Below, piece after piece: positions 4,031 through 16,388 of a stretch of 64,000 bases of DNA. Positions within the stretch are counted from its first letter, which is position 1. Every line of letters starts with the position of its first letter. The notes below the pieces were generated by a model. It was not told the origin of the DNA. It saw only the letters and a list, made by a program, of their open reading frames with translations, and made no database searches. The DNA is from Shewanella vesiculosa (GTDB taxonomy: Bacteria > Pseudomonadota > Gammaproteobacteria > Enterobacterales > Shewanellaceae), in the NCBI RefSeq assembly GCF_021560015.1, contig NZ_CP073588.1:2914001-2978000 (forward strand), written 5' to 3'. The position numbers and the translations under genes were made by a program.

Positions 4031-5026
4031 CTAAAAGCACAATAACGACAAGATGAGCTTTTTTGCCAGCATATGTTGTTGCTTAATACTGACATGATAG
4101 CGTGCCACCCAAGCCACTAATTGATCCCAATCTACTGCTAAGCCTTTGCTGCCATCAATGACATCAGAGGTCGATGAACTCGGCATAAGTCGATTGACTA
4201 AAGGCGATGGCTGTGACCCAAGGTATTCACCAGGGTTATTTTTAGCCGCGATAGTTTCATTGATATAAGCTAACTGACGCTGCTGCTTATAAAAATCTGT
4301 CGCTGAATTGATTTGCGGCAATGCCAGTAATGTTGCGGGTGCACTGAGGGCTAATTGAGGAACGACGAGGTGTTGGCAATGATCTAGGCTATGGGCAATC
4401 ATTAACCCGGCGGGATCTAAATCGGTAAACGCAATCACTTGCACCTTGGCAGGATCAATCAAACCTAAGAAATGTTTGCGTCCAGCGGGGGAATAATGAT
4501 GACTGCCGCGATACACCACCATGCACCGTTCCATAAGCTTAGTCATAGATTGATCAAACTGATACTGGAAAACGTTATCAAAACTGTCTAAGTTTTCCAC
4601 CACCATAATGCAGTTAATGGCGAGCTGTTCGCAAAGGTTAACGGCACGATCAACCTTAAGTCTTAGTGCGCAATCATGCTCGGCCAATAGGCCTTGGCAT
4701 AACGGTGGGGCTAACTTTAGCAGCAGATAGTCGGCTTCTGGCGCAATATTGGCGTATTTCTCATTCGCGCTTTGCTGCGACATTTGTTGCCGTGTCACAT
4801 CAAAGTCTAGCGCTAGAATATCTAGGCCGGTATCGATTTGTGCCATTTGTCGCAGTAACTGATGATCGTTAACGCTTAAGTACAATTGCTTTTGGGCGCC
4901 GTCGGTTTCACCTATTTGCCATAGACGATAAACATGTTGCCAACCGGCATTAAATGGCACTCGCGGCAATCGTTGTTTTGCTGCGCGAGCCAACATTTGC
5001 AAGTGATGTTTACTGATACTCGCCAT
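4031..5026 (-). CDS. jetD: JetD/MksG-like Toprim nuclease subunit of a Wadjet-type system
   Basis: 331-residue protein with the conserved pattern of the DUF2220/JetD family, whose C-terminal half is a Toprim domain related to topoisomerase VI subunit A and cleaves DNA loop-extruded by the SMC partner. Visible catalytic motifs are VVENLDSF (Glu144), VYRGSHHYSPAGRKHFL (about 171-187) and FTDLDPAGLMIAHSL (Asp202, Asp204), matching the E...DxD metal site of Toprim folds. The N-terminal arm is shorter than in typical JetD proteins, which are about 380-400 residues. It is the last gene of the minus-strand operon, 97 bases after the kleisin gene; those 97 bases contain no obvious terminator. The family assignment rests on the motifs and on the three upstream partners. 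Confidence 0.8.
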   Translation of the reverse strand: MASISKHHLQMLARAAKQRLPRVPFNAGWQHVYRLWQIGETDGAQKQLYLSVNDHQLLRQMAQIDTGLDILALDFDVTRQQMSQQSANEKYANIAPEADYLLLKLAPPLCQGLLAEHDCALRLKVDRAVNLCEQLAINCIMVVENLDSFDNVFQYQFDQSMTKLMERCMVVYRGSHHYSPAGRKHFLGLIDPAKVQVIAFTDLDPAGLMIAHSLDHCQHLVVPQLALSAPATLLALPQINSATDFYKQQRQLAYINETIAAKNNPGEYLGSQPSPLVNRLMPSSSTSDVIDGSKGLAVDWDQLVAWVARYHVSIKQQHMLAKKLILSLLCF

Positions 5027-5123
5027 CTAGACTCTTCATCTTTTATATTGATCGTTTCAGTTTATTACACGTTAACAATATTGATCGCCGACAAGCTTAA
5101 TGGCCAACGAAATGACGGCAAGG

Positions 5124-6344
5124 TTACGCTAACCAAAGTTCAACATCGTGAATGACAAAGTTGCCACTATATACCGGGTCAGGCTTTCCTATAGGTTCAA
5201 GCTCAAAGTAATTCTTATGCTCATCAGCTAAGCCTTCATAGCCACCAATCACCTGATATAGCCAACTTTCTGCATCCCACTGCAATTGTTTCTCTGTAAG
5301 GTAACTGAGCGCCGATTGACGCAGACCTGAATCAATCACTTCACAGAAATACTCATCGACAGCAATTTTCAGTGGGTTTTCAGGGATATCAAAATCTTCA
5401 CTGTCACCCATTTCAAAGGTCACGTTGTGTTCACGCAGCATGGCCGGTAATGAATCACGGCTGATGGCTTTCACTTGCGCGACCAAACTCATTAGCTCAA
5501 GTTCATGATGCGGATTAGCAACATCAACACTCGCGGGGGCTATCAAGGCTTCAGCGCAGTTGAACAATACAGGTACTGTTTTATGCACCACATGGTTTTC
5601 AGGTTGATAATCTGGATGCATGCTGGTGTGTAATAACCAGCCTTTTAGTAATCTGGTGCGTCCTTGTATTTGTCTAAACCGGCCCAATAACTCGTACAAT
5701 CGCGCTTGCACAATGCTTAATTCCTGAGTGCATTGACTCAAGGTTTCTTGCAAGCTCGTCATTAATAAGCGGCGCAGTTCGCGGATATCACCAGCAATTT
5801 CACCTAGCTCGCTAAATTGGAACATGTCTAAACCGTTGAGCAGTTCTGATACTTGGCTTTGAGCTAATTCGTTTTCGCGAATTTTCGCACTTATGGTGCC
5901 TACATAGCCAAATTCATTATTAATGCGGCTCCACAACACCCGGATTGAATAACGTAAACTGTCGGTAAAACTGTACACATGCTCATTTAAATCAGCTAAA
6001 TAAGCTTCCGCTGCGCTAAAATCAACATCGCGGCGCGCTTCTTTATAGTGATCGGCTAAGGTTTTTATCGTCGCGAGCGCCGAACCGACGTTAGCATCAA
6101 TTTGTCTGTTGCGCTCATCGCTTAAGGCCTCTTCCAATAATGCCCGCACTGAACGCTTTAAGCGCAGTTCTTGATCAGGCTCAGGGCGCCATAAAATGCC
6201 ACTTTTTCTTAATTTTTCAATAACGCCACTATCATGGGCAGTATCGCTAATCGACCCCGCTAAATAGGCATCCATAATGACGTCGGCATGCCGCCCAAGT
6301 TGTTTGAGCAGCTTTACCCCAGCTTGGTGTAAGTTGCTGCTCAT
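5124..6344 (-). CDS. jetA: MksF/JetA-like kleisin subunit of a Wadjet-type SMC complex
   Basis: 406-residue soluble, helix-rich protein. In Wadjet/MksBEF systems the kleisin bridges the SMC heads and recruits MksE and JetD. The assignment is positional and by fold pattern: the N-terminal 60 residues look like a winged helix, the middle (about 100-250) is long amphipathic helix with coiled-coil character, and the last 100 residues resemble a second winged-helix cap. No enzyme motif is visible. Its ATG overlaps the stop of the MksE-like gene as ATGA (4-base overlap), indicating translational coupling. It is shorter than typical JetA proteins. Direct similarity could not be tested, so the role is inferred mostly from context. 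Confidence 0.72.
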   Translation of the reverse strand: MSSNLHQAGVKLLKQLGRHADVIMDAYLAGSISDTAHDSGVIEKLRKSGILWRPEPDQELRLKRSVRALLEEALSDERNRQIDANVGSALATIKTLADHYKEARRDVDFSAAEAYLADLNEHVYSFTDSLRYSIRVLWSRINNEFGYVGTISAKIRENELAQSQVSELLNGLDMFQFSELGEIAGDIRELRRLLMTSLQETLSQCTQELSIVQARLYELLGRFRQIQGRTRLLKGWLLHTSMHPDYQPENHVVHKTVPVLFNCAEALIAPASVDVANPHHELELMSLVAQVKAISRDSLPAMLREHNVTFEMGDSEDFDIPENPLKIAVDEYFCEVIDSGLRQSALSYLTEKQLQWDAESWLYQVIGGYEGLADEHKNYFELEPIGKPDPVYSGNFVIHDVELWLA

Positions 6345-6994
6345 ATAAGATCCCTTTGGGTCGCGGTTTCGGCTTGAGCCTCAAGACTTAGGCCTTCGGT
6401 TTCATCAATAAAACGGATCACTTCGTACAAATAATCGAGTTTACCCGTGGCGATATAAATCTGTTTTTCACTATTGGGTTTGGTTAAATAACCCAGCTCC
6501 ACTAACCGCTTAAACACCAACTTAATTTGGCCATCAACGTTAGTACTGCTTGAACCAAATAATCGATAATGGCTCAGCTTAGTCAGCTGTTCTCTGAAGG
6601 CTGGCGTGTCTTCAATCCGTGCTTGTAAGTCGGTTAAGCGAATAGGGGCACCTTCGCTTAAAGGCGCATCTTGACCACTGGCTTCTTGCACCAGAACTAA
6701 CCATTCCACCAGTGGGATAAGCGCGGCGCAAATATCTTTAAACTGCGACGAAATCACTTTACGTTCCACTTCGCCCAGCTGCAAATAGCCGCAAAAAAAC
6801 ACTTCACCTTCACCAGCGCTGGCAACGGTACGATTAATTTGATTCAGATAGGTTTCAACTCGGTCACGAGTACTATTATTCTTTAGGGCGCGCCAGCCGT
6901 CTTCGTTAGTCACACGGCAAACAAATTCACCGCGCAGCAGTTGCTCAATTAACGCACCAGTACCTACTAAGGTTGTTTCAGTCGAATCTGACAT
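6341..6994 (-). CDS. jetB: MksE/JetB-like accessory subunit of a Wadjet-type SMC complex
   Basis: 217-residue protein of the size expected for MksE/JetB (DUF4194-like), the tandem winged-helix dimer that binds the kleisin in bacterial condensins. Seen in sequence: the N-terminal helix with LIEQLLRGEFVCR and the C-terminal winged-helix-like stretch VFKRLVELGYLTKP...IYIATGKLDYLYE (about 160-195). It lies between the SMC ATPase and kleisin genes with a one-base overlap upstream (TAATG) and a four-base overlap downstream, so the three are certainly co-transcribed. The family name is inferred from size, context and the winged-helix-like end. Confidence 0.72.
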   Translation of the reverse strand: MSDSTETTLVGTGALIEQLLRGEFVCRVTNEDGWRALKNNSTRDRVETYLNQINRTVASAGEGEVFFCGYLQLGEVERKVISSQFKDICAALIPLVEWLVLVQEASGQDAPLSEGAPIRLTDLQARIEDTPAFREQLTKLSHYRLFGSSSTNVDGQIKLVFKRLVELGYLTKPNSEKQIYIATGKLDYLYEVIRFIDETEGLSLEAQAETATQRDLI

Positions 6995-9900
6995 TAGATG
7001 TGCTCCTTAGCAGTTTCAGTCATGCTGGTGTCGGTATGGGTCATTTCAGCATTACGTTGTGATAAACGTGCCGCTAATGGGTTGGCTTTTGGCTTCACCA
7101 CTTGCAATTTTTTAGTTTGTTTATTAATGATATAACGGTTAGCAAATAGATTTAACACTTCAGATTCTGGGTTCGGAAATGCGCCTAATACACTAATATT
7201 ATTGTTTTCACAGGCATCGAAAATTTTCTTCACGTTGGTGTGATGCAAAGTGCCTAACTCATCGATGGGCCAATGAATGGTCACATTGGCTTTGCCACGT
7301 AATAAACGAGTAAATGCTAATAAGAATTTACATAAAATTAGGTAGGCCATACCATGACTAGACGATTCGTTTAATTGGCGATCGGTACGAATAATTAAGT
7401 CGCTGTTACCTTCTTTTAGTCGCAGCTCAATTTCGAGCAGTTTGGCTATGCCGCCAGTTAATGCTGCGCGGCCAATAATGTCTAAAGCGCGGCGCATTGA
7501 GTTAGTGTAGTGTTCGTCTGGTAGCTGACTAAAACCATCTGCTTTCCACGCTTTAAAGGCTTTAACAAACACTTCAAGTTCGGGCCAAAATTCAAGTTCA
7601 CTAATACGCGAGCGAATACGGACCGCAGACTCTGATACGCCATCAAGAAATAACTCCTCGCCCACTTCACGGGTAATGCGCGCGCTTTGGCTGGCAATAC
7701 GGCGATCGATATCAGTTAATACATCATAAAACGCGGTTAAATCGATACCAAAAATTCGTCCTTGCTCACGAATCGCCATTAACGATTGCGGCACCATCAC
7801 ATTCAGTAGTTGTTCAAGCTGTGGCACCAACTTACGGTAGTCAAGTAAACGAATGCCTTTATCGTTGACAAAGCTCGACTCATCGCGGGCTCGTTCCCAA
7901 AACTCGGCTAAACTTGAACCTGATTTACTGGCAATAACCGAATCAAAGTGCTCAACATATTGCTTCACTGAACCCATTAAATAGTCGCGTTTTAGCAATA
8001 AATCTTCGCCTTGACGCAAACGTTCACCAATACCACCGGTCGCTTCATCATTGTTGCCGGGCAGTTTAAGCTCTGCGAGTTTGCGCATCACTGCACGCAG
8101 TTTAGTGAGGTTTTCAGAGGCCTCAACTTGGGCAGCATCACAAGCTTTACGGTCGGTTTCTAGGCTGTCACGACGTTGCTTAATTTCTGTGGTTTTCGCT
8201 TTTAATTGCTGCTCTAATTCCAGCGTAGCACGCTTAACATCGGCTAATTGAGTTTGCAATTTTGGCTTACGCACCAACCAAGTATGCTGATACCAATCAT
8301 CAAAACGCAGCACATCACTGCGACGTTGTTCGGCATGACTAATTTTGGCTTCAAGATCGCGTATTTGCTTTTTAAGCGCCAAAATCGTGCCTTCATCAAC
8401 TCCACGTGACTTAAGCTCGTTTTTGTACCAGGTTTCACCGGCCTTTTGTTCGGTTTTAGCATTAGCGCGGCGTTGTTCAATATTGGCTTTAATTTGCCCC
8501 AATTGATTATCAATGGCGCCGACCACTTCTTGCCAATAAGCATTTTTTTCCATACGCGCTTCCAGCGCCTGCTCTTTTTGCTCTGTTAACCAACCAAGAT
8601 GCTGATTATGAAGTTGCTTAAGCTCATGCTCAAGCTGCACTAATCTTTTGCTCGAATCTGCTTTGCGATCGGTTACTGCTTGATTAATTTTTTGTTGTTC
8701 GTTACGTTTTTCATCAAATAAACGGCGCAAGTCTTCACGACTATTTTTATAGGCTGTGCGAGCAAAGGTCAGCTCACGGGTAATACTATCGAGCGCTGCA
8801 TTCATGGCAACCAGCTGATCTTCCGCTTCTGCATGCATTTCTTGAGCGCTTTGCAATGCGTCTTCTGCTTTGGCTAAGCGAATACGCAAATCTTGCTCTG
8901 TTGCGGCATACTCGGGAACATCAATCGCTTTGAGGTCGAGATTCACCCCGAAGAGAGCTTCACTGCTGTCTTGGGTTAGGCTTGGGTGTAAGTCACTGCG
9001 ATGCAACAACTCTGGAGCGATAACCTTACCAAAGGTGTGCTCCCAACCGTGGGCTTCTTTTCGCAAAAATTCCAATAGTGTATGCGACTGCGGGAACAGC
9101 ATATGGTGCAGTTCTTCTTTGGCATTTTCTCTGTCGCTGACACGAATAGTGGCAATGCGCAGCGCTTCATTCGCTTGATCGCGTTTGGCCCGTTGTTTAC
9201 GTTCTTCAGTGGTTAAGCGATCGACCTTTTGATTGCAGGTTTCTTGCTCTTCGTCGGCCAAACTAATACGCTCATCAAAAATGGCTAGGCGCATTTTTTC
9301 ATCTTCGGTATAAGTCACACCATCCACTTGATGTTTGAGCTCGGCAGCAGTTAATTTGAGTTGATATTCTTGTTCGCTGAATGTTGCTTTACCCACATCG
9401 GTTTGTTCACGCCATTGCAGTTCTAACTTAGCAAGGTCGTCATTGGCGAGTTCGCGCTGCTTATCGCGGGCTTCACGTTGAGCGTCTTGTTCAAGATGTA
9501 AGACTTCAAGTTCACGATGTAATTGCTCAGCAATTTTACTGCGACGCGCATTAAAAGCCGCTTCGATGTCTTGGTGTTTTTCGGTTTGTAATTTATGACG
9601 TTCGTTAAGATTTTCAACATCACTGCGCCAATTCGGCAAATTATCAAGGTCTGCTTTGGCTTGTTCAATATCGGCATCTAAAAAAGCGGCGTGCTGATCT
9701 TCAATGGCATTGAGTTCATCTTCAAACTTACCTGAATCGCCTTTTGCTGCTGATAATTCTTGGTTTAGCTCATCACGAACATCTTTCCACTCTTCATCTA
9801 ACAAGCGCAATTTGAGGTTTAACTCTTTGCCATGAGTTTGATTACGGTCTTGGCGCTCAGACTCTAAGGTTTCATCTGCGCGATAACCGCGCGATAAACT

Positions 9901-10707
9901 GGCTAAGCGTAACTCGGCACTTAATAACTGATTAAATTCTTGTTCGAGCTTGTCATATTCTGGGCGGATTTGCTCAAAACCCTGCACCAGCTGGCTTTCA
10001 CGGATCCAGGTTTCTACTCGTTGCGGATTGAGTCTAGAAGTCGGCGGGTTAACACCATCTTCCTCTAAAATGGCTGCGATCATTGATTTAACCGTTTCCA
10101 TTTTGCCCTCTTTCGAGTGCACTGCTTTGGCGAGTTTTTCGATATGACGCAAGTTATGGTCGCCGTCACACAAGGAGAACTGACGCGCATAAGTGCGCAA
10201 CTCATTGCGGTTACTACCGGTGTTCAGCAAGCTGCGATCGTTTTGAATGATCGCGCGAAACTCGCGGGTATTTAACAAGTTAGTATGAGCAACTCCATCA
10301 CGTTTTACTTCACGGCCAAGCTCTGCCATTGAATGACAAATAATGGTGTCGCCATTTCGTGACTTAATGTAATGCTCTAACTCAAAACCGCGGGCTATAA
10401 AGCGGTAGTTAACCCCTTTACCGTCACCTGCTGAGGCTAAAACAGCTTGATAAAGTAAGCCATCATCTTTTTGATATTCATAGATAATGTAGCTTGAATC
10501 ATGGGGTAAATACCAACGTTCAAAACTGTCACGTGTTGAAGGCACCACTCGGCTTGGATATTCGCCATAAAATACCGGCACCAGACGTTGTAAGGTTGTT
10601 TTACCCGAGGCATTGGTACCGCAAATATTAGTGTGACCACTTAATAACAGTTCGACCACACCCGGTAGGTGGGTATTAATTAACACGATTCTAATCAAGC
10701 TTGGCAT
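6994..10707 (-). CDS. jetC: MksB/JetC-like SMC ATPase of a Wadjet-type system
   Basis: 1237-residue SMC-like ATPase, first gene of the operon, with an AAGGAT ribosome site seven bases from the ATG. The N-terminal head has Walker A GTNASGKTT (30-38). Residues about 250-1000 are two long coiled-coil arms rich in E, K, Q, L and R around a central hinge-like segment. The C-terminal head has an ABC-signature-like ESSSHGMAYL (about 1114-1123) and Walker B TIHWPIDELGTL with Asp1149 and Glu1150. Such proteins dimerise and extrude DNA loops; with kleisin, MksE and JetD they recognise and cut small circular DNA. The length suits MksB/JetC better than Rad50/SbcC, and the three partner genes support this. 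Confidence 0.88.
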   Translation of the reverse strand: MPSLIRIVLINTHLPGVVELLLSGHTNICGTNASGKTTLQRLVPVFYGEYPSRVVPSTRDSFERWYLPHDSSYIIYEYQKDDGLLYQAVLASAGDGKGVNYRFIARGFELEHYIKSRNGDTIICHSMAELGREVKRDGVAHTNLLNTREFRAIIQNDRSLLNTGSNRNELRTYARQFSLCDGDHNLRHIEKLAKAVHSKEGKMETVKSMIAAILEEDGVNPPTSRLNPQRVETWIRESQLVQGFEQIRPEYDKLEQEFNQLLSAELRLASLSRGYRADETLESERQDRNQTHGKELNLKLRLLDEEWKDVRDELNQELSAAKGDSGKFEDELNAIEDQHAAFLDADIEQAKADLDNLPNWRSDVENLNERHKLQTEKHQDIEAAFNARRSKIAEQLHRELEVLHLEQDAQREARDKQRELANDDLAKLELQWREQTDVGKATFSEQEYQLKLTAAELKHQVDGVTYTEDEKMRLAIFDERISLADEEQETCNQKVDRLTTEERKQRAKRDQANEALRIATIRVSDRENAKEELHHMLFPQSHTLLEFLRKEAHGWEHTFGKVIAPELLHRSDLHPSLTQDSSEALFGVNLDLKAIDVPEYAATEQDLRIRLAKAEDALQSAQEMHAEAEDQLVAMNAALDSITRELTFARTAYKNSREDLRRLFDEKRNEQQKINQAVTDRKADSSKRLVQLEHELKQLHNQHLGWLTEQKEQALEARMEKNAYWQEVVGAIDNQLGQIKANIEQRRANAKTEQKAGETWYKNELKSRGVDEGTILALKKQIRDLEAKISHAEQRRSDVLRFDDWYQHTWLVRKPKLQTQLADVKRATLELEQQLKAKTTEIKQRRDSLETDRKACDAAQVEASENLTKLRAVMRKLAELKLPGNNDEATGGIGERLRQGEDLLLKRDYLMGSVKQYVEHFDSVIASKSGSSLAEFWERARDESSFVNDKGIRLLDYRKLVPQLEQLLNVMVPQSLMAIREQGRIFGIDLTAFYDVLTDIDRRIASQSARITREVGEELFLDGVSESAVRIRSRISELEFWPELEVFVKAFKAWKADGFSQLPDEHYTNSMRRALDIIGRAALTGGIAKLLEIELRLKEGNSDLIIRTDRQLNESSSHGMAYLILCKFLLAFTRLLRGKANVTIHWPIDELGTLHHTNVKKIFDACENNNISVLGAFPNPESEVLNLFANRYIINKQTKKLQVVKPKANPLAARLSQRNAEMTHTDTSMTETAKEHI

Positions 10708-11052
10708 GATAATCCTTTTCCAAACAGCTCACATTACAGTGACTAAAAAGCAAAATACGGATGAAAAAATAACGTCTGTTTTTACAATGTCAATAAAGTA
10801 AAACAAACGCGGCCTAGAGGCAATTTTCACCCACAAAAATTGGCTTTATAATACGCTAAATAATTCAAAAATGGCGGCTAACAATGCAGCAAACAAGCAG
10901 AAACGGTTTATGTCGCATAAATGAGCTCAAGTTTAGGAAGTAAATAAGATCTTTTTTTCGCTGCAATAAAGCAAAAAACGCAGAGATTTCTCTCTGCGTT
11001 TTTTGTTATGCGGTACTAAAATTTAGCTGAGCATTTTATATTAAGATTAACG
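10708..11052. other. Intergenic region upstream of the SMC operon
   Basis: 345 bases holding the presumed minus-strand promoter of the SMC operon next to 10708 and the terminator of the chemoreceptor gene (listed separately). The stretch 10790-10860 is AT-rich; no small gene is evident. Confidence 0.5.
10973..11004 (-). terminator. Bidirectional terminator after the chemoreceptor gene
   Basis: Stem CGCAGAGA / TCTCTGCG (10979-10998) with a TTTC loop, flanked by an A run and a T run, so it can act on either strand. It serves the minus-strand chemoreceptor gene ending at 11053. Confidence 0.85.
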
Positions 11053-12672
11053 TTACAATTTAAATTGTGAGGTCGCATGGCTAAGCTCATTAGCAAACCC
11101 ATCTAATCCTTCTGAAATCCCCTGCACTTGTGCAAGAATACCCAGTGTTTGATCAAATGAAGCATTCATTTCAACTACGTTATTGGCAACATGTGCAGCA
11201 ACTAAAGACTGCTGTTCTGTGGCTGCTGCTATATGGGTATTCATACTGTTAATACTGACAATTTTAGATTGAATTGAACTTAATGCTGCACCGGTATCTT
11301 TGGCATAACGCTCGTTTTCTGATGACTTAGCAATGGCCACATCCATGGTGCTAACCGATGATTCAGCCGCTACTTTAAGCTTTTCTAATACGCCACGGAT
11401 CTCTTTAGTCGCGTCGGCAGTTTTAGACGCCAGTGCACGAACTTCATCAGCAACCACGGCAAAGCCTCGTCCATGTTCTCCCGCTCTGGCGGCTTCAATG
11501 GCAGCGTTTAACGCGAGCAAGTTGGTCTGTTCTGCAATAGAGGTAATCACGTTCAAAATAGAGCCAACACTTTCGGTATCTTTGGCTAACTCATTGATAG
11601 AATTTGATGCGAGTTCAATACCTGAATTAAGTTCTTGTGAAATTCTCACCGTGCGCTGCACTACTGCTAAACCTTCCGTTGCCTCACGTTCAGCAACTTG
11701 TGCAGCTTCAGCCGCTTGTTGGGCACTGTGTGAAATATCATTGACTGAATGACGCATTTCTTCCATCGACATATGCACAGTTTTAGCATCGTGACTTTGT
11801 TGCTTAGTCGCTTTAGTTGCAACCGCCATGCGCTCTTTTAGCGATGATGCGCTGTCTAGCAATGGTTTAGTCACACTCACAACGCTTTGAATTGACTCAG
11901 CAAGTAAGCGTAAAAATCGATTAAAGTTGCTTGATACCTGCCCTAATTCATCAGTCCCGACAACCGTCAGTTGGTGACGTAAATTGCCTTTACCGTCAGC
12001 TAATTCACCTAATGAGTTAGCCACATCACCCGCAGCGCCGCTAATGGCACGCGCAATTGAAATAGTTGAAAGAGCCATAAAGACCAATAATGCGACCCCT
12101 ATGCCCAATGACAGGTATAAACTCTGTTCAGAGCGGTCACCCGCTTCTTTAATAGTAGAGCTAAACTCTGCCACTTTATCGGCCTTATAAGCCGTGATCC
12201 CATTCGTTAAGCTTTCGAATATTTTGGCTTTTTTCTGACTAATTTGCCCTACATCAGCCATATCAATAGTACCGTCTAGCATTCCCCTTGCCAGTGACAG
12301 TGTCATGGTATTGTATTCGTCTAGGCTGTTAGATAATTGCGATAACAACGCACTTTCGGGCTGATCAATAGTTGATAGATTGGTTAAGTTATCTTTGAGT
12401 GAAGAAAAGGTTTTCATGGCGTTCCCGAGCAAATCTTCATCGGCAAAGGATACTGATTGGGTATACAACTCATCTAATCGTTGGACAAATATGACATTTT
12501 GATTTGCAAGCTCAACACGCTGTGCAACTTTGGTCTCCATGAAAGATAATGTGTCACGGTTTTTATTAATCGCAACTGTGCTGATGCCAAGGTTAACGGC
12601 AAAAATAATCACTGATAAGACAAAAATCAGTCCCACCTTTTTAAAGATTGACATGTTACTAAACCAATTCAT
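11053..12672 (-). CDS. Methyl-accepting chemotaxis protein with periplasmic four-helix-bundle sensor
   Basis: 539-residue chemoreceptor that feeds CheA/CheW at the cell pole. It has a first membrane segment at about 10-32, a periplasmic helical sensor (about 33-185, four-helix-bundle type), a second membrane segment (about 187-208), a HAMP linker (about 209-262) and a cytoplasmic signalling hairpin. The highly conserved tip is present: [20 protein letters not shown] then [15 protein letters not shown]. There is no C-terminal pentapeptide for CheR/CheB tethering. An AGGGG ribosome site precedes the ATG. No chemotaxis genes are adjacent, as is usual for stand-alone receptors. The ligand is unknown. 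Confidence 0.93.
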
Positions 12673-15390: not shown

Positions 15391-15644
15391 GTCATGCTCC
15401 ATTTAGATTTACATTAAACCCGATACCAATATGGTTTCGGTGATGATAAACAAACTGTGCTCGTCATCTGATGTAGCTATAATAGCGATGGAGGCTAACT
15501 AAGTATAACGGATAAAAACTATCACCCTAATCGGTTTTTCATATTGAACCATCTTTGAGAGACTATTTGTATGAAGGGTATAAATCATCAACACCGAGTA
15601 CGCTTGAAAGCTGGTACTCGATTAATGATGTTTATTGGTGGATG

Positions 15645-16388
15645 TTATTCCCAAGGACCAAATCGTGTCAGCACGCGGCTAACATTAATATCGAGCTTTT
15701 GTGAAAGGGCTTGTAAATCTTGCTTATTATTTGCGGCAGAAAAACAATTGGCTTTATTGGTGGCAAATACCACCCAATTCCCGCCACCGGTTAAACAAGC
15801 AAAGACTTGATTAAAATGCTCATGAAGCGTGTCACGTAACTGTAAGTCTCGACTGTGTTCTTTCCAACAATTTAATACTAAAAAGCCATCCGTTTTAAGC
15901 AGCTGTTTTGTTTGCTGAATAAATTGGTTAGACAACTGTTGTTTATCTACACCTTTGTCGCTGTAGATATCAGCAAAAATAACATCGACTTTTTTATGCT
16001 CTGCTTGGGCTAAAAATACATAGGCATCTTGGTGCACTATGGTCAGTTTTTTACCTAAAGGTAATTGAAAAAAGCGTTTAGCCACTTCAATAACTTGTTG
16101 GCGCAATTCAACTGCAGTAATTTTAATCGCTGCATCAAAATGCCTAAGGGAATGCACGAGTGCACCGCCACCTAAGCCTAAAATAATCACACTTTTGGGT
16201 TGGCTGAATAACAGCACTGCTAACATGGCCTGAACATAAGTATGTTGCGGTACATGAGGTTGACTCTTATCCATCTTACTTTGCTCATCATTATCACCAA
16301 ATGATAAGACCCGATAGTCGCCATCGTCGAGCACACAAAAATCACCAAACCGATCACCGTCGACGTGCAATACTTTATAATCAGACAT
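15645..16388 (-). CDS. Spermidine synthase-like methyltransferase-fold protein
   Basis: 247-residue cytoplasmic protein with a Rossmann-type methyltransferase/aminopropyltransferase fold. The cofactor loop VIILGLGGGALVHSLRHF (about 69-86), the acidic strand ITAVELRQQVIEVA and the later DVIFADIYSDKG match the spermidine synthase superfamily. It lacks neighbours such as speD, and the substrate-binding tyrosine/aspartate pattern of true spermidine synthases is not complete, so a polyamine function is unproven. Divergent from the MscS gene at 16540 with a 151-base shared promoter region. Confidence 0.75.
   Translation of the reverse strand: MSDYKVLHVDGDRFGDFCVLDDGDYRVLSFGDNDEQSKMDKSQPHVPQHTYVQAMLAVLLFSQPKSVIILGLGGGALVHSLRHFDAAIKITAVELRQQVIEVAKRFFQLPLGKKLTIVHQDAYVFLAQAEHKKVDVIFADIYSDKGVDKQQLSNQFIQQTKQLLKTDGFLVLNCWKEHSRDLQLRDTLHEHFNQVFACLTGGGNWVVFATNKANCFSAANNKQDLQALSQKLDINVSRVLTRFGPWE

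Follow-up and report, generated by a model that had tools for sequence, protein, structure and literature searches.

Wadjet type I systems (JetABCD, or MksBEFG in Corynebacterium glutamicum and Pseudomonas aeruginosa PA14) are single operons for an SMC (structural maintenance of chromosomes) ATPase, a KITE subunit, a kleisin and a nuclease of the Toprim type. That related SMC complexes tend chromosomes in some cases and restrict extrachromosomal DNA in others has been called a paradox in the field (excerpts of PMC10586767). Here we analyze an operon with likely counterparts of these four components in a window of 64,000 nucleotides from Shewanella vesiculosa (contig NZ_CP073588.1, positions 2,914,001 to 2,978,000, assembly GCF_021560015.1). 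The operon consists of four minus-strand open reading frames at 4031-10707 of this window and is a Wadjet/Mks-like variant of a divergent subfamily outside types I-III, with a reversed gene order and a short nuclease. Within the genus its SMC gene is universal, whereas its nuclease is optional and fast-evolving, a pattern that was missed in the preliminary description of the locus. Literature searches returned nothing on the nuclease family DUF7281, nor on MksBEF in combination with Shewanella and plasmids (an earlier mention of the subfamily is possible), and papers on the SMC family DUF3584, judged by title and start of abstract, include none on this system. The original survey of MksBEF is said to be that of Petrushenko and colleagues from 2011.

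Transcription runs from the SMC gene (6994..10707, 1237 amino acids) through the genes of the likely KITE subunit (6341..6994, 217 amino acids) and the likely kleisin (5124..6344, 406 amino acids) to the nuclease gene (4031..5026, 331 amino acids), all on the minus strand and thus in the order C-B-A-D. Stop/start overlaps couple the first three genes (TAATG between SMC and KITE, ATGA between KITE and kleisin). The preliminary description had reported the four genes with these coordinates and both overlaps, which the sequence bears out. The nuclease start lies 97 bp past the kleisin stop without overlap coupling, and by eye this spacer (5027..5123, minus strand) holds a GAAGAG stretch resembling a ribosome site ahead of the nuclease start. 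Among 32 Shewanella copies, 24 instead have a nuclease start that lies 12 bases ahead of the last base of the kleisin gene.

The SMC protein (JetC/MksB-like) matches PF12128 (DUF3584) over the complete profile (1670.4 bits, positions 1-1191 of 1191). It carries the motifs expected of Wadjet/MksBEFG in the broad sense: the Walker A motif GTNASGKTT (residues 30-38, 10594..10620), an ABC signature-like motif SSSHG (7351..7365) and the Walker B motif IDELG (residues 1148-1152, 7252..7266), again on the minus strand. Both Walker motifs had been named correctly beforehand. All three are unchanged in the 74 Shewanella SMC proteins longer than 1150 amino acids, 42 of which come from testable loci without nuclease; S1117, G1119, D1149 and E1150 are invariant in 20 diverse rows. 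The match to PADLOC JetC1 is limited to residues 1-42 (E 1.3e-4); for comparison, the type III JetC at locus L136 reaches 2170 bits with its PADLOC profile.

The last gene product is predicted to be a JetD/MksG-type Toprim nuclease with conserved acids. It scores 95 bits against PF23947 (DUF7281; cut-off 27), and the predicted metal-binding acids E144 (4595..4597) and D202-x-D204 (4415..4423), both on the minus strand, are invariant in 29/29 Shewanella nucleases, in 39/39 rows of a wider alignment and in 16/16 mobile copies; the preliminary description had given the positions of all three acids correctly. In its AlphaFold model the Toprim fold is clear and the best matches are MksG, Topo VI-A and JetD. 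Foldseek ranks topoisomerase VI A (1d3y_A, E=5.2e-4) first, and VIA ranks 8b7f_A, a plasmid nuclease of C. glutamicum, first, with JetD (7til_B) also matched and Topo VI-A among the best. Profiles give a weaker signal: PADLOC JetD1/JetD3 touch the Toprim region of the window nuclease (best E 9.7e-4), and in relatives the PADLOC JetD matches range from a best E of 4.7e-7 and 2.1e-7 in some to none in others. Pfam JetD_C has no match anywhere in this genome; it touches a relative (L184) below cut-off, and DUF7281 in turn gives a sub-threshold match to a type III JetD.

The two remaining subunits are assigned with less certainty. The 217-residue protein is likely an MksE-like (JetB-like) KITE subunit, judged from a match to PF21980 (E=2e-5, 25.4 bits) that stays just under the cut-off of 27; a phage homologue (L182:9665-10282) clears this cut-off with 28.8 bits. 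The 406-residue protein, for which no kleisin profile matched in Pfam, PADLOC or NCBIfam, is likely a MukF-type (JetA/MksF-like) kleisin, since MukF is the best structural match of its AlphaFold model. A Wadjet-II chain stands below MukF in the VIA list, with which a closer tie to JetA is still compatible. PADLOC JetA and JetB leave the window kleisin and KITE unmatched, and JetA is also unmatched in 25 kleisin relatives. Both genes adjoin the SMC gene at 74 of 75 loci from one scan, the sole exception being a contig end. PDB sequence searches (nuclease and SMC singly, profiles of all four) were uninformative, the nuclease profile touching Spo11 with E 0.12. Many Shewanella kleisin homologues, and some from other genera, are labelled 'phosphoenolpyruvate carboxylase' at NCBI, which is implausible by length, predicted fold and operon.

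The preliminary description had named two outcomes that would count against its Wadjet/MksBEF-G assignment: the lack of a kleisin-profile match was indeed found, and the lack of a Toprim fold was not. Its MksE-like and MksF-like calls thus stand at the level of a near-threshold profile match and a predicted fold, respectively, and its 'small kleisin' needs a caveat (406 residues are close to the 431-residue chain of the matched MukBEF entry). In the broad sense of its parts the assignment is supported, with KITE and kleisin as likely subunits; in the narrow sense it is not, given that the PADLOC Wadjet I-III profiles fail to recognize the system, which we therefore place outside types I-III and name a Wadjet/Mks-like variant. 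The analysis also supports the suggestion that the short JetD marks a divergent subtype.

Compared with Wadjet type I, the window operon likely encodes the same set of parts, and its nuclease model matches both C. glutamicum 8b7f_A and JetD 7til_B. Its order is nevertheless SMC-KITE-kleisin-nuclease against kleisin-KITE-SMC-nuclease (mksFEBG, in excerpts of PMC10123090), the matched Toprim part begins near residue 95, compared with 206-218 there (which makes the N-terminal part more than 100 residues shorter), and the PADLOC type I profiles match the window proteins weakly. The nuclease-less MksBEF of P. aeruginosa is likewise a second condensin alongside SMC-ScpAB, and nuclease-less versions of the window operon occur in Shewanella. 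Here, however, forms with nuclease (armed) and without (disarmed) exist in one genus, some at the same site; the gene order is reversed, and the SMC, of 1237 amino acids, belongs to the DUF3584 family, as P. aeruginosa MksB may also do. Escherichia coli MukBEF provides the best structural match of the predicted kleisin fold (MukF), but the MukB Pfam family is absent from the window genome and a nuclease is present. Topoisomerase VI A and Spo11 share a Toprim domain with E and DxD acids; in the window, unlike there, the nuclease stands in an SMC-motor operon, which lacks a Topo VI B-type gene.

A universal SMC gene and an optional nuclease in Shewanella

Searches for the SMC and nuclease genes in 129 genomes of the genus found the SMC gene in all 129 and the nuclease in 62. 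The window genome itself is complete (4.78 Mb), with Shewanella frigidimarina as the closest named relative at the locus (SMC 96% identical); it also encodes ScpA of SMC-ScpAB, and MukB (PF04310) has no match in it. Two of the 75 scanned loci (L007, L048) end at contig edges, leaving 73 testable loci, where the nuclease is present at 31 and absent at 42. All three core genes are present at each of these 42. At 36 of them the symporter gene follows 341-741 bp after the kleisin; the other six lack it. At two nuclease-less loci (L017, L033) inspection by eye revealed a T run and a terminator-like hairpin shortly past the kleisin stop.

In the 42 nuclease-less intervals (only 800 bp searched at the six symporter-less loci) we found no convincing nuclease remnant. 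The best hit (L067, E 0.005) is antisense, and for the weak sense-strand hits at L051 (E 0.04, 73 residues, 26%) and L021 (E 0.1, 25 residues) an old remnant is possible. On the core-protein tree (86 rows including 12 outgroup rows, with L007 and L072 excluded) the nuclease state requires at least 10-11 changes. Over 12 nuclease-less pairs, the ratio of nonsynonymous to synonymous substitution rates (dN/dS) spans 0.011-0.056 in the SMC gene and 0.008-0.036 in the kleisin gene, close to the values in 13 armed pairs (0.015-0.049 and 0.008-0.074). The nuclease-less cores are thus not decaying and are under strong purifying selection in the sampled pairs. No KITE, kleisin or SMC residue cleanly splits armed from disarmed copies, in a comparison confounded with phylogeny.

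Several genomes deviate from the common arrangement. In three of the 62 nuclease-bearing genomes (G281, G442, G478) the nuclease lies away from the main SMC copy, as found by comparing two tables by eye. Two genomes carry a second, divergent SMC gene with nuclease beside the main locus (L117 in G281, and G479:C1:1998969-2005361); the main copy of G281 (L131) lacks the nuclease. In seven genomes (G182, G461, G394, G467, G406, G468, G479), all with nuclease, the main SMC scores 1050-1180 bits against 1440-1830 elsewhere (the split G474 excepted), perhaps reflecting a replaced allele of the whole operon. A broken nuclease in a strain with small contigs (L003/G443) was dropped, because the kleisin, AhpF and FBP matches are also shortened there, which indicates assembly errors.

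Divergence and exchange of the nuclease

Based on 29 complete loci, the nuclease diverges much faster than its surroundings. Between the window and S. frigidimarina (L001) the identity is 96% for SMC, 97% for KITE, 96% for the kleisin and 96% for the flanking symporter, against 58% for the nuclease. The mean nuclease identity is 69% over 41 pairs with SMC identities of 90-95% and 42% over 184 pairs with SMC identities of 80-85%. In 13 pairs the nuclease dN is around 6 times that of SMC (median; range 0.9-15). The nuclease dN/dS is 0.08-0.20 in the 12 of these pairs with measurable dS, which together with the invariant Toprim acids argues that the nuclease is kept for function.

From sequence comparison, the nuclease looks to have been exchanged between some lineages. 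In the core tree the window and L001 are sisters, whereas in the nuclease tree L001 groups with six others and the window falls outside (96/96). Constraining the two nucleases together was rejected (p-AU 0.024; a single test, chosen after the identities had been seen). The nuclease of L062 groups with the side of the window (99/97, long branch), although no nuclease is present at L034 and L036, the loci closest to L062 by core. The alignable flanks of L034 and L062 stop at 15535 in both and restart at 15701 and 16582, respectively, a clean present/absent site. The identity between L002 and L006 is 81-92% across the SMC against 97-100% across nuclease and symporter, as expected from recombination through the flank. 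Such exchange would be occasional, since in other respects the two trees are largely congruent.

Gene order, mobile copies and surroundings

For a survey across the order we drew 394 genomes and used profile matches to DUF3584 (126 genomes, 123 above cut-off) and DUF7281 (75 genomes, 70 above cut-off). From 132 SMC rows 127 were used, and removal of three weak ones belonging to other operons (G113, G172, G302) left 124 places, three of which are fragments. A DUF7281 nuclease lies downstream on the same strand at 67 of these, at a distance of 2.0-2.7 kb in 65 cases and of 7.2-7.9 kb in two. As the shorter distance is just enough for KITE and kleisin, SMC-KITE-kleisin-nuclease is a stable architecture, and the C-B-A-D order, which the preliminary description had set apart from the jetA-B-C-D order of Wadjet and the mksF-E-B order of Pseudomonas, recurs at 65 places in this draw. 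Seen from the nuclease, 67 of the 70 above cut-off sit downstream of an SMC gene; the others are in G139, on a contig other than that of the SMC, in G209, where no SMC matched, and in G113. In G113 (L122:771-6260) a 419-residue protein, MksE (118.7 bits), a 917-residue SMC-like protein and a DUF7281 nuclease follow in the classical order; nucleases of this type can thus accompany more than one motor. At L127:6911-11767 (G110) some 4.9 kb with genes for an L,D-transpeptidase, a DUF3087 protein, an aminotransferase and a zinc-type dehydrogenase separate kleisin and nuclease; G207 has a similar gap.

A tblastn search with the SMC protein identified 41 plasmid records and one phage. The best 15 of the 41 plasmids and the phage were analyzed, and all 16 have SMC-KITE-kleisin-nuclease in this order on a single strand and retain the Toprim acids. 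These copies are partly non-independent: all four protein accessions are common to L190 and L191, and one is common to L193 and L194. The phage is Dolichospermum phage Dfl-JY45, a 209-kb cyanophage whose four genes (PP438435.1 86907-93262; L182:5974-12329) encode proteins of 1233, 205, 411 and 272 amino acids, all annotated as hypothetical. In Vibrio campbellii plasmid pLA16-1 (L184:4914-10508) SMC and kleisin are each annotated in two frames. All but one of the 15 plasmids are larger than 100 kb (the exception has 40 kb), and excerpts of PMC10586767 state that circles above roughly 100 kb escape Wadjet. The large size of the carriers fits such an escape but may also reflect the greater gene number of large plasmids.

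A short distance upstream of the SMC gene stands a sigma-70-like promoter candidate, TTGACA-16-TATTTT (10766..10793, minus strand), which agrees with the consensus in 10 of 12 letters. It is weak by itself, as the region has 20 sites of this kind where shuffles predict 14.5. A terminator-like hairpin with a 15-pair stem and a T-rich tail (10972..11005, minus strand) lies between the operon and the upstream gene at 11053-12672; such sites show a mild excess (11 against 8.8 expected). The symporter gene stands 3' of the operon at 66 of 75 loci. Judged by their sequences, the neighbours are presumably housekeeping-like: FBPase (fructose bisphosphatase), a dicarboxylate-type symporter, a chemoreceptor, AhpF and AhpC.

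Motor and nuclease: interpretation

The best explanation, and in our judgement a probable one, is a genus-wide MksBEF-like SMC motor with a detachable, likely anti-plasmid nuclease (compare PMC10586767 and PMC7485682, in excerpts). Loop extrusion is the likely way in which a motor of the MukBEF/MksBEF/Wadjet superfamily would reel in DNA, and a JetD/MksG-type nuclease would, by homology, likely cut small circular plasmids. The core alone may keep a chromosome-organizing role, as reported for the nuclease-less MksBEF of P. aeruginosa, and addition of the nuclease would convert it into a plasmid-restriction machine. Lineages may shift between the armed and disarmed state by exchanging the nuclease gene through conserved flanks.

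In excerpts of PMC10123090, C. glutamicum MksB has no effect on chromosome organization, which speaks against a dual role in armed forms. Plasmid exclusion was not seen in our survey: Rep_3 genes occur in 14 of 62 armed against 6 of 67 disarmed genomes, the opposite trend, and the mechanism consequently rests on homology and anatomy. Second contigs, circular or not, measure 279, 249, 231, 212, 162 and 150 kb, and also 52, 23, 19, 13, 9, 6 and 3 kb, in armed few-contig genomes, and 50 and 63 kb in two disarmed ones.

If the operon served Wadjet-like defence only, nuclease-less copies would be decaying remnants heading for loss. The JetABC-like parts next to a Toprim nuclease, and the nuclease in every mobile copy analyzed, suit this idea; we nevertheless consider it improbable, as the 42 nuclease-less loci retain the whole core with unchanged ATPase motifs, their dN/dS is as low as in armed pairs and not one of the 129 genomes lacks the SMC gene. 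This universality, together with the mostly constant site beside the symporter, would suit a pure condensin with a Toprim protein that serves DNA topology or repair (Topo VI-A/Spo11-like) and is no weapon, an idea also favoured by the structural matches to Topo VI-A and by the lack of visible plasmid exclusion. It is an unlikely account all the same: 67 of 129 genomes have no nuclease, a dN so high relative to SMC would not be expected of a housekeeping topoisomerase, VIA ranks the C. glutamicum plasmid nuclease first, and the same four genes travel on large plasmids and a phage.

The contrast between a fast nuclease and a slow motor might also stem from phage inhibitors, if the complex sensed replicating or packaged phage DNA that the nuclease then cuts, and a cyanophage with its own four-gene copy would suit phage-phage competition. 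However, the closest characterized relatives restrict plasmids (excerpts of PMC10586767 and PMC10123090), and we regard anti-phage defence as very improbable. The detachable anti-plasmid nuclease on a genus-wide motor leads to a wider picture, which we put forward tentatively and with somewhat less than even confidence: the universal condensin, inherited vertically, may act as a chassis onto which the nuclease is clipped, swapped between species or dropped via conserved flanks, so that one motor would alternate between organizing the chromosome and killing plasmids, while the armed four-gene cassette spreads on large plasmids and phage.

Surveys resting on the PADLOC Wadjet profiles tested here would miss this family, because these profiles miss it. 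The phage-encoded copy raises the question of what use a phage has for such a machine. Since closely related loci such as L062 and L034 have the armed and the disarmed form at one and the same site, what the motor does with and without its nuclease is testable by a one-gene change, and the genus may show how an SMC machine gains and loses a weapon.

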